A DNA stretch of 48,461 nt from positions 1-48,461 of the forward strand of contig CALKGV010000081.1 in the NCBI GenBank assembly GCA_938091805.1, in the 5' to 3' direction. This DNA is from an uncultured archaeon. GTDB taxonomy: Archaea > Thermoproteota > Bathyarchaeia > Bathyarchaeales > DTEX01. The notes beneath the pieces are model-generated. The model ran no database searches. It was not told the DNA's origin and worked only from the letters and a program-made list of their open reading frames with translations. Positions 14,615 through 19,314 of the stretch are shown here, in pieces (within the stretch, counting starts at the first letter, position 1; each line of letters opens with the position of its first letter). The position numbers were made by a program, and so were the translations under genes.

Positions 14615-14712
14615 AGATCATTCCTCCCCAAATTAATTGAATATACATCCGTAAAACTATTATTGCAAGTTAGAATATGCACTATTGTATAAGCCCTAAA
14701 GGGATCATACCT

Positions 14713-15156
14713 ATGGAAAAAGGTAAGACAGGGTTTGAGTTTCTGGAGCATATGGCGGACGCCTACATAGCTGCTTACGGCAGGGATCTTAATGAAGCAT
14801 TCGAGAACTCCGCCTTAGCAATGTTTGAGACTATGACGAGCACGTCTGATGTGAAGCATGTTATTGAGGAAGAAGTTGAAGTTGAGGGTGAAGATGAAAA
14901 ATCCTTACTCTACAATTGGCTTGAAGAACTCCTAGTAAGGTTTGAGGTTGAAAACATGCTGTACTCAAAATTCAAAATATTGGAGATGGAAAGAAAAAGA
15001 TGCGGCGGATTTAAACTTAAGGCTAAAATCTACGGCGAACCATTCGATCCGGAGAGGCATAAGCAAAAAGTCGGGATAAAAGCAGTAACCTACCATCGCA
15101 TGGAGATTGAGGAAAAGCCTGAGGGGGCTATTGTGAAATTCATACTTGACCTATGA
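14713..15156 (+). CDS. Archease (tRNA ligase RtcB activator)
   Basis: 'GFEFLEHMADAYIAAYGRDL' is the archease N-terminal signature (family: F..LEHTADa.i.a.G..l..aF), with a calcium-binding Asp. 'LYNWLEELLVRFE' and the closing 'GIKAVTYHRMEIE' are also diagnostic. Archease drives guanylylation and turnover of the RNA ligase RtcB in tRNA splicing, which is relevant here because the window contains an intron-bearing tRNA. I chose ATG 14713, giving 147 residues, the usual length, with AAGGGAT ahead. ATG 14677 would add 12 atypical residues. RtcB is not in the window. Confidence 0.9.
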   Translation: MEKGKTGFEFLEHMADAYIAAYGRDLNEAFENSALAMFETMTSTSDVKHVIEEEVEVEGEDEKSLLYNWLEELLVRFEVENMLYSKFKILEMERKRCGGFKLKAKIYGEPFDPERHKQKVGIKAVTYHRMEIEEKPEGAIVKFILDL

Positions 15157-16369: not shown

Positions 16370-17899
16370 TTGTCCGAGAAAGACGAGGAAATAAGGTCAA
16401 TTGATGAAATCAATGAGAAAATAAAGCGTGGAGATGCCGTTGTACTAACAGCTGAAGAAATGATTAATCTTGTGGAGAGCAGCGGTCTCGAGGTTGCCGC
16501 CAAAGAGGTTGATGTCGTCACGTCCGGAACCTTTGGAGCAATGTGCAGCTCCGGCGTATTCTTGAATTTCGGGCATTCTGATCCGCCGATAAAGATGACG
16601 AGATGCTGGCTAAATGATGTTCCGGTATATAAGGGGCTTGCTGCTGTGGACGGTTATTTGGGAGCAGCCTCAATAAGTGAAACTAAGGGTTTTGAATATG
16701 GCGGCGGACACGTCATAGAGGATCTGGTTTCCGGCAGAGAGATTGATTTAAGGGCTGAATCTTACGGAACCGACTGCTACCCTAGGCGGCATATTGAGAC
16801 AGTAATAACTATTGACGATTTAAACCAGGCCACGCTTGTCAACCCGAGAAACTGCTATCAAAAATATGACGCTGCCGCAAATAGCTCCGATAGGGTTCTG
16901 TACACTTATATGGGCACGCTGCTGCCGAACTATGGGAACATAACCTTTTCAGGCGCTGGGCAACTAAATCCTCTATGTAAAGACCCTAACTATGAAACCA
17001 TTGGTTTCGGAACCAAAATCTTTCTAGGCGGCGGGATAGGCTACATAATCGGTGAAGGAACGCAGCATAATCCCACATCAGGTTTCGGCACCCTCATGGT
17101 TAAGGGAGACCTAAAGCAGATGAACAGTCGGTATCTACGCGGTGCATCCTTCCACAGGTATGGAACAACCCTGTATGTTGGGATAGGCATACCGATACCC
17201 ATCATAAATATGAGGGTTGCCGGGACAGCGGCGCTAAAAGACGATGAAATATATGTCGACATACGGGATTACGGCGCAGCGGTCAGACCCGACCTAAGGC
17301 CTGTGATAAAAAGGGTTTCATATGCTGAGCTCAGATCTGGGAAGGTTACAATTGGCGATAGGGATATCCCATCATCATCACTATCAAGCTATAAGATGGC
17401 AAGAGAAATAGCTGAAACCCTTAAAAAATGGATTCTGGAGGGAACGTTCTTCCTAACAAGGCCCATAGAACCCCTTCCAAAGCATGGGAAACCTAAGCCA
17501 TTAAAGGTAAAGGGCAGGGAACTGCGGGCTGGCGACATAATGAGCAGAAATGTCATAACTGCTAAGCCAAGCGATGACATCAAGGAAGTTGCTTTAAAAC
17601 TTGTCGAAAAGGGCATAGATCACTTGCCGGTCGTCGATGAGGAAGGCAAACTTGCTGGAATAGTTACCTCGTGGGATCTGGCTAGGGCTATAGCCCAGGA
17701 TAAAAGGAGACTGGAGGAAATAATGACTAGGAGGGTTATTGTCGCCTTCGAGAATGAGTCCATAGATGTCGTTGTGCGTAGAATGGCGCAGCATAATATA
17801 TCCGGCGTCCCAGTTGTGGACAGAATGAACAATGTTATCGGCATATTAACGACGGACGACATTTCAAGAAAAATCGTCGGGGGGAGAACCGCTTTATGA
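16370..17899 (+). CDS. L-aspartate semialdehyde sulfurtransferase (DUF39) with CBS pair
   Basis: This 509-residue protein has a DUF39 domain (about 10-375) and two CBS domains (about 385-505: 'AGDIMSRNVITAKPSDDI' and 'LEEIMTRRVIVA'). DUF39-CBS proteins in methanogens build homocysteine from aspartate semialdehyde and a persulfide-type sulfur. Cys59 in 'SGTFGAMCSSGVFLNF' and Cys136 in 'YGTDCYPRR' sit at the spacing of the two functional cysteines reported for the Methanosarcina protein, shifted by five. The start is TTG 16370 behind a perfect GGAGGTG; no ATG competes. It overlaps the next gene by four bases, so the pair is translationally coupled. The CBS pair may sense adenosine ligands such as SAM or ATP. 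Confidence 0.93.
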   Translation: MSEKDEEIRSIDEINEKIKRGDAVVLTAEEMINLVESSGLEVAAKEVDVVTSGTFGAMCSSGVFLNFGHSDPPIKMTRCWLNDVPVYKGLAAVDGYLGAASISETKGFEYGGGHVIEDLVSGREIDLRAESYGTDCYPRRHIETVITIDDLNQATLVNPRNCYQKYDAAANSSDRVLYTYMGTLLPNYGNITFSGAGQLNPLCKDPNYETIGFGTKIFLGGGIGYIIGEGTQHNPTSGFGTLMVKGDLKQMNSRYLRGASFHRYGTTLYVGIGIPIPIINMRVAGTAALKDDEIYVDIRDYGAAVRPDLRPVIKRVSYAELRSGKVTIGDRDIPSSSLSSYKMAREIAETLKKWILEGTFFLTRPIEPLPKHGKPKPLKVKGRELRAGDIMSRNVITAKPSDDIKEVALKLVEKGIDHLPVVDEEGKLAGIVTSWDLARAIAQDKRRLEEIMTRRVIVAFENESIDVVVRRMAQHNISGVPVVDRMNNVIGILTTDDISRKIVGGRTAL

Positions 17900-18285
17900 G
17901 GGTTAAGCTCATATACTCACATAGCGTTGTCGAGAAGCCCATCCTATCCAGCATCGTTCTCAAAACTGGCATACCGATCAATATTCTTGAGGCTAGAATA
18001 AACGCTCAGAAAGGCGAAATTATAGTTTCAATACCAGCAAGCGGAGAAAAACTTGAAGAAATACTGAACCTCTTTAGAGAGTCAGGAGTACAAGTTCAGG
18101 AATTCATCGAGACCCTAAGAATAGACTGGGAGAAATGCGTGGCATGCGGCGCCTGCATATCGCCCTGTCCAACAAGAGCCCTAAGATTTAGGGAAGATTG
18201 GACGCTTGAGTTCATCGAGGAAAAATGCGTGGCATGCGGAATATGTGTAGCAGCATGCCCGGTTAAAGCGATAAACATGCCGTGA
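17896..18285 (+). CDS. NIL-domain ferredoxin, partner of the DUF39 sulfurtransferase
   Basis: The first 75 residues form a NIL domain ('MRVKLIYSHSVVEKPILSSI'). It is followed by two [4Fe-4S] motifs, 'CVACGACISPCP' and 'CVACGICVAACP'. This fusion is the companion of DUF39 proteins and supplies electrons, probably for reducing the persulfide or disulfide in homocysteine formation. The ATG overlaps the DUF39 stop (ATGA), and the stop overlaps the next start (GTGA). All three genes therefore form one coupled operon. No ABC methionine transporter is near, which argues against the transporter-linked NIL role. Confidence 0.93.
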   Translation: MRVKLIYSHSVVEKPILSSIVLKTGIPINILEARINAQKGEIIVSIPASGEKLEEILNLFRESGVQVQEFIETLRIDWEKCVACGACISPCPTRALRFREDWTLEFIEEKCVACGICVAACPVKAINMP

Positions 18286-19025
18286 AGATGATGATGGCAA
18301 AAAAGAAGATTGGGGATATGGCGATTTACGAGTATGGATTCATCCTTGGAAACTCAAAGGTGCATATAAAATGCGATAAGAAAGACGCCATATTAGCGTC
18401 TGCTGAGGAGATGAAGCGGCACATAAAGGACCTTTCAGACTACATTAAAAAGAACCCGCAAATCCTCTACGCCCTAGAACCCTTAGAGGTCGAGCCGGAG
18501 GCCCCGCAAATCATCAGAAAGATGGCTTACGCCTCAAAGATGGCGAACGTGGGCCCTATGGCCTCTGTTGCAGGTGCCATCGCCGATTTCGGTTTAGAAG
18601 CCCTGCTTAGAATGGGCTCAAACATCGCAATAGTTGAGGATGGAGGTGAAATCTCAGCGTCCACCACGGAAGATATCCCAATATCGATCATAACAAGCGA
18701 GAGAAAACTATCTGGAAAAATCGGCCTTCTAATAACCAATGACGACTCACCTATAGGCATAGCCACAAGTACGGGTAAAACCGATCGGGTCGTAAGTTTC
18801 GGAGAAGCTGATTCAGTAACCGTTGTTGCTGAGAATGCAGCAACGGCGGATGCAGCTGCAACATCAATATGCAATGCAATAGTAGGCTTAAACGCCGCTC
18901 GATCGATCCTTAAAGGGCTGGAGCGGGCAAAAAACATAAGAGGCGTTAGGGGCGCAATAATAATTCGAAACGGGCAGGTTGGCCTAGTAGGCAAATTGCC
19001 GAAAATAATTAGAATAAGAGATTGA
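18282..19025 (+). CDS. UPF0280 (COG2122) protein of the homocysteine operon
   Basis: The protein is about 247 residues, with an ApbE-like fold suggested by 'ASVAGAIADFGLEALLRMG', 'IAIVEDGGEISAST' and 'GIATSTGKTDRVVSFGEADS'. COG2122 proteins have been genetically linked to sulfide-dependent homocysteine synthesis together with DUF39 and NIL-ferredoxin. Their place here as the third coupled gene supports that link. Translation may begin at GTG 18282, overlapping the previous stop, or at one of three ATG codons within the next 12 bases. The biochemical step is unsettled. Confidence 0.88.
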   Translation: MKMMMAKKKIGDMAIYEYGFILGNSKVHIKCDKKDAILASAEEMKRHIKDLSDYIKKNPQILYALEPLEVEPEAPQIIRKMAYASKMANVGPMASVAGAIADFGLEALLRMGSNIAIVEDGGEISASTTEDIPISIITSERKLSGKIGLLITNDDSPIGIATSTGKTDRVVSFGEADSVTVVAENAATADAAATSICNAIVGLNAARSILKGLERAKNIRGVRGAIIIRNGQVGLVGKLPKIIRIRD

Positions 19026-19120
19026 AAAGGTGAGAAACCCTCTAATGCTACAAAATCTTTTAGTGCACCAAATAACAAAGTATACTGTTGGGCCCGTGGC
19101 CTAGCCAGGACAGGGCGCAG

Positions 19121-19152
19121 CGGGCATAATATAGCATAATTTCACCGCGTAA
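19121..19152 (+). other. Non-canonical tRNA intron (between positions 29 and 30)
   Basis: A 32-base intron interrupts the 5' side of the anticodon stem. The bulge-helix-bulge is visible. GCGC of the 5' exon pairs with GCGT near the intron 3' end (one G.U), flanked by three-base bulges AG|C and AA|G cut after the second base. The splicing endonuclease and RtcB with archease would process it. Confidence 0.85.
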
Positions 19153-19160
19153 GCCTTCGG

Positions 19161-19183
19161 AACCAAAAAATCAGATTGAAGAA
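19161..19183 (+). other. Canonical tRNA intron (37/38)
   Basis: A 23-base intron. The four-base central helix is CTTC (tRNA 32-35) with GAAG near the intron 3' end. The bulges are GG|A and AA|A, each cut after the second base. The intronic helix is weak, which is a relaxed form of the motif. Confidence 0.88.
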
Positions 19184-19314
19184 AGCCTGAAGTCGAGGGT
19201 TCAACTCCCTCCGGGCCCGCCACTTTTGCGTTCGGAATAATCCATTTAGGCCTTTCTATGTTCTCTTTTGGAAGGTTACATCTAGGGCTGTTTATTCTTT
19301 GACATGTAGAGACC

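Follow-up and report, generated by a model that had tools for sequence, protein, structure and literature searches.

Archaeal tRNA genes with several introns have been described before, most abundantly in Thermoproteales, and position 29/30 is among the listed sites (Sugahara et al. 2008; Fujishima et al. 2010; PMC4090602, PMC8450103). tRNAscan-SE 2.0 provides for introns located so close to each other that one must leave before the next bulge-helix-bulge (BHB) motif forms (PMC8450103). Here we describe a tRNA-Arg(UCG) gene at 19090-19222 on the plus strand of the window, i.e. the whole analysed stretch of 48,461 nt from an uncultured archaeon (contig CALKGV010000081.1). It is disrupted at positions 29/30 (19121-19152, 32 nt) and 37/38 (19161-19183, 23 nt). 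Based on its sequence, the intron positions, their conservation and the enzyme genes of the host, we consider it a functional gene from which two BHB introns would be spliced (probability about 0.95).

As introns at 29/30, tRNAs with several introns and removal in a set order have all been described, the gene represents a type of disruption already known from archaeal tRNA genes. An earlier note, made from the window's sequence alone, had called the 29/30 position unusual; the location holds and is non-canonical, but it already appears in reviews (PMC4090602). In contrast to the Thermoproteales cases, the host belongs to Bathyarchaeia, one position is used in two Arg isoacceptors, the intron recurs throughout the class and introns are as short as 11 nt. 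The split tRNA-Ala(CGC/UGC) of Caldivirga maquilingensis is interrupted at the same 29/30 site in the 5’ strand of the anticodon stem (PMC4090602). There, however, separate transcripts are trans-spliced, whereas the bathyarchaeal tRNA-Arg is a cis case. No description of tRNA introns in Bathyarchaeota was found in the limited literature searched, where Bathyarchaeota were named only in a footnote. The gene is composed as follows.

19090-19120, plus strand: exon 1, nt 1-29; acceptor 5’ strand, D arm and anticodon-stem nt 1-3.
19115-19118, plus strand: exon strand of the BHB 1 central helix, GCGC, nt 24-27; pairs with 19147-19150.
19121-19152, plus strand: intron 1, 32 nt, position 29/30; missing from the intronless orthologue L030, unique joint solution.
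19147-19150, plus strand: intron strand of the BHB 1 central helix, GCGT; pairs 4/4 with 19115-19118.
19153-19160, plus strand: exon 2, nt 30-37, GCCTTCGG; anticodon TCG at 19157-19159.
19155-19158, plus strand: exon strand of the BHB 2 central helix, CTTC, nt 32-35; pairs 4/4 with 19178-19181.
19161-19183, plus strand: intron 2, 23 nt, canonical position 37/38; missing from L030 and from genes with the 29/30 intron only.
19178-19181, plus strand: intron strand of the BHB 2 central helix, GAAG; pairs with 19155-19158.
19184-19222, plus strand: exon 3, nt 38-73 plus encoded CCA; 5-bp T stem, 7-bp acceptor stem, discriminator G73.

With both introns removed the exons give a cloverleaf with a 7-bp acceptor stem, anticodon and T stems of 5 bp each, U33 and the anticodon UCG. 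The restored anticodon stem CAGGC/GCCTG consists of five Watson-Crick pairs. The tRNA body ends at 19219 (exon 3 thus spanning 19184-19219) and is followed by the encoded CCA at 19220-19222. Exon 1, with acceptor stem and D arm, is kept in orthologues, and exon 2 is invariant among the Arg(UCG) orthologues of the own family. Both junctions show a 4-bp helix between 3-nt bulges (AG/C and AA/G in BHB 1, GG/A and AA/A in BHB 2), and all four cut sites lie after the second bulge base. The exon-side helix h comprises at least 2 bp in both motifs, 23:31 and 22:32 for intron 1 and 31:39 and 30:40 for intron 2. The intron-side helix h’ is short, with 2 bp (GG/CC) in intron 1 and about 1 bp in intron 2. 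Neither intron shows the strict hBHBh’ form; both motifs are of the relaxed hBH form, which is an accepted form of BHB tRNA intron. The coordinates, the perfect stem and the junction geometry given in the earlier note are all reproduced here, the relaxed hBH form being a refinement.

Whether the exon-intron structure is unique was evaluated by enumeration. Acceptor, D and T arms were held fixed and a 17-nt anticodon arm with U33 was drawn from the 72 nt between nt 26 and 44. The full enumeration contains no single-intron solution with U33, i.e. not the better fold that the earlier note had named as speaking against two introns. Twenty-nine two-intron solutions yield a 5-bp stem, and only one of them combines five Watson-Crick pairs with complete central helices in both BHB motifs (19121-19152 / 19161-19183, anticodon TCG). 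When the 72-nt stretch was shuffled, an equally good solution arose once in 300 trials, and never in 300 with an Arg anticodon. These shuffles, together with the existence of intronless, single-intron and two-intron relatives, show that the structure is not a product of chance. No other gene of the genome matches the two-intron Arg pattern.

The deciding evidence for both predicted introns is comparative. The host falls into a Candidatus Bathyarchaeota group: two bathyarchaeotal records of metagenome-assembled genomes are 98% and 89% identical in a neighbouring protein, and both contain the same tRNA (L009, L010). Within the own family (f1), Arg(UCG) carries both introns in 18 of the 21 genomes, with varying intron sequences and lengths and constant splice points. 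In the related family f5, genome G031 has the intronless gene L030 (...GGGCGCAG^GCCTTCGG^AGCCTG...) and genome G024 a gene with the 29/30 intron only (L102). These two serve as natural empty sites.

Pattern scans were extended to 163 genomes of the order, 257 of the class and 300 spread across the phylum. They used exact exon patterns, so that a missing match does not mean a missing gene. Among the Arg(UCG) and Arg(CCG) genes found, some lack both introns, some have one or the other and some have two; the 37/38 intron stands alone in matches from f21 (CCG) and G147. The 29/30 intron is recurrent in both isoacceptors throughout Bathyarchaeia and sporadic elsewhere in the phylum, with clear cases in G401 and G411 (f39), G465 and G470 (f50), G361 and G306 (f35) as well as G431 and G456 (f48). 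Several hits were discarded: those in G271, G296, G299 and G445 resemble 29/30 introns, but by eye are apparently D-arm coincidences within intronless tRNAs, and those in G131, G133 and several GC-rich ones apparently chance matches. For the subset of hits examined as DNA, full cloverleaves with a 7-bp acceptor and a 5-bp T stem and with the same splice points were verified for 38 two-intron, 7 29/30-only and 9 intronless genes.

By eye we chose from the pattern hits 89 sequences that are interrupted at 29/30; both introns are present in 54 of them (22 UCG, 32 CCG) and the 29/30 intron alone in 35. The final six intron bases nearly always read GCG[T/C]A[A/G], the first four pairing with exon nt 24-27, and all four central pairs are kept in 81 of the 89. 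Inside these introns 316 contiguous helix pairs are found as compared to 46 +/- 8 with shuffled intron bodies, a difference which gives no probability, the sequences being related by descent. Helices of up to 10 bp with differing sequence would nevertheless be difficult to account for in another way. The window's intron 1 has only 2 such pairs, as opposed to 3-10 bp in many relatives. In genus g5 (L016, L022, L026, L027, L028) the 29/30 intron is 11-12 nt long and too short for an intron-side helix, so that a small loop is closed by the central helix. The own genome's Arg(CCG) gene (C6, L133) is interrupted at 29/30 only, and the intron sequence GTGT matches its exon base A26. In the Arg(CCG) genes L035-L070 intron 2 commonly ends with GAAGAA, which fits the anticodon UCG and leaves an A-C mismatch with CCG. 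Perhaps the Arg(CCG) gene derives from a copied Arg(UCG) gene, or pairing is re-established by a bulged A.

An intron within the anticodon stem had been taken by the earlier note to require an endonuclease of relaxed specificity as in Crenarchaeota, with a heteromeric EndA to be sought in the genome. Two EndA paralogues are indeed present, alpha on C40 and beta on C92. EndA alpha (L004, 186 aa) aligns to Aeropyrum pernix alpha along almost its entire length (E about 1e-41). As in the (alpha-beta)2 EndA of A. pernix it keeps the Tyr, His, Lys triad and a loop Lys followed by Pro and a basic residue: K40-P41-K42 aligns to K44-P45-R46, the loop tied to broad specificity in A. pernix (3p1z, 3ajv; PMC6379350, PMC12397907). 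This ‘Crenarchaea-specific’ loop with Lys occurs in 8/8 bathyarchaeal EndA alpha sequences read (L001-L008). EndA beta (191 aa) best matches Methanocaldococcus jannaschii EndA with Ser replacing the catalytic His, as expected of a beta subunit. Catalytic and structural paralogues are accordingly separate, the His being kept in alpha and replaced in beta. Unlike the A. pernix system, the host is bathyarchaeal, no crenarchaeon, and its beta is a full-length two-domain paralogue. Assembly into an (alpha-beta)2 heterotetramer and broad specificity are what we infer from these features.

RtcB is encoded at C95. Its cofactor, which the earlier note had assigned to the ligation machinery, lies in the window itself.

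14677-15156, plus strand: archease, RtcB tRNA ligase cofactor; PF01951, E 2.6e-46; general machinery.

It is a true PF01951 member, but it lies ~4 kb from tRNA-Arg(UCG) and is not specific to this gene. Splicing would then proceed by an (alpha-beta)2-type EndA that cuts out each intron after the second base of both its 3-nt bulges, the exons being joined by RtcB with archease. Both actual splicing and the stoichiometry of the enzyme are proposed here from sequence features.

The two motifs share bases. Base 31 pairs with 23 in BHB 1 and with 39 in BHB 2, and base 32 pairs with 22 or with the intron-2 strand. BHB 1 thus uses 23:31 and 22:32, while BHB 2 uses 30:40, 31:39 and nt 32-35. BHB 1 and BHB 2 therefore cannot coexist and splicing should be ordered. 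BHB 1 is moreover in competition with the D stem. Once the 29/30 intron is gone, the 5-bp anticodon stem under BHB 2 would be restored, and because BHB 2 rests on this stem the 29/30 intron is probably the first one out. Predicted at 60 °C, the BHB 2 helix is up after intron 1 removal in 13 precursors and down in 1, whereas BHB 1 is indifferent to intron 2 removal (8 up, 8 down). Free-energy folding of the precursor is uninformative on its own. We regard it as unlikely, though still worth considering, that both introns are real and the 37/38 intron leaves first or either order is used. Genes with the 37/38 intron alone exist and the folding energies are too weak to decide, but BHB 2 requires the very stem broken by intron 1, and its prediction improves once intron 1 is gone.

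Some observations weigh against two introns excised in this order. The mature tRNA sequence itself misfolds in silico, without a cloverleaf, hence the precursor folding energies are unreliable and lend the order little weight. For the window’s own precursor, in silico folding gives low BHB helix probabilities. Intron 2 could also be placed at 38/39 with the same product, as the intron and nt 38 both start with A; we favour 37/38 because of the 4/4 helix there. Finally, the genomes G004, G009 and G010 yielded no Arg(UCG) tRNA match.

It appears very improbable that this is a pseudogene or a tRNA copy in decay that carries two insertions and is not spliced. Standard tRNA finders do miss the gene: ARAGORN and Rfam RF00005 report as the sole tRNA of the window a Pro (CGG) at 1960. 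However, its exons are intact, the stems perfect and CCA is encoded, the introns diverge in the own family while the splice motifs persist, and the genome contains no second match to the Arg(UCG) pattern. A single real intron, the remainder belonging to an unusual anticodon arm, can practically be dismissed, as no point in its favour was found, the enumeration between the fixed arms gives no such solution with U33 and L030 lacks exactly both segments.

Upstream of the gene, an alignment of 7 genus members indicates one further element.

19054-19066, plus strand: possible promoter element AATCTTTTAGTGC, located some 25-36 bp before nt 1.

AATC is invariant in this alignment. Most members also retain the TTTTAGTGC portion, which has diverged in L018 and is absent from L020. 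By its conservation AATCTTTTAGTGC may function as a promoter. The tRNA comes after a series of genes (16370-19025) that encode a HcyBio-CBS protein, a NIL-ferredoxin and a protein of 247 aa with no Pfam match. The end of the last of these seemingly adjoins the tRNA in genus members too.

The tRNAs of the own genome were surveyed in part, using RF00005, a T-loop pattern and selected stretches. A 165-nt tRNA-Lys(CUU) (G000:C11:19445-19610, L137, minus strand) seems to contain several introns. One of them, in which CGGC can pair with GCTG, is at 30/31, where the tRNA-Lys(CUU) of Nanoarchaeum and Staphylothermus is split (PMC4090602). A tRNA-Asn(GUU) (G000:C62:1205-1330, L161, minus strand) has apparent introns near 8/9 and at 30/31. 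Three further tRNA genes, at C71:1001-1140 (L167), C90:1250-1500 (L177) and C26:950-1060 (L143), each have at least two apparent non-canonical introns of up to ~240 nt. The window’s genome thus seems rich in disrupted tRNA genes.

Tentatively, and with more doubt than confidence, we propose that the 29/30 intron of Arg(UCG)/(CCG) is old in Thermoproteota, was inherited via Bathyarchaeia and repeatedly lost, and that in two-intron genes its removal would be the obligatory first step building the 37/38 substrate. The fixed-site series with none, either or both introns in one tRNA family offers a test of whether tRNA introns are inherited or transposed. For annotation, relying on ARAGORN or the Rfam tRNA model can make Bathyarchaeia genomes seem to lack Arg tRNAs that are actually there. 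Taken together, these findings extend to Bathyarchaeia both tRNAs with several introns and a heteromeric splicing endonuclease that bears the loop.
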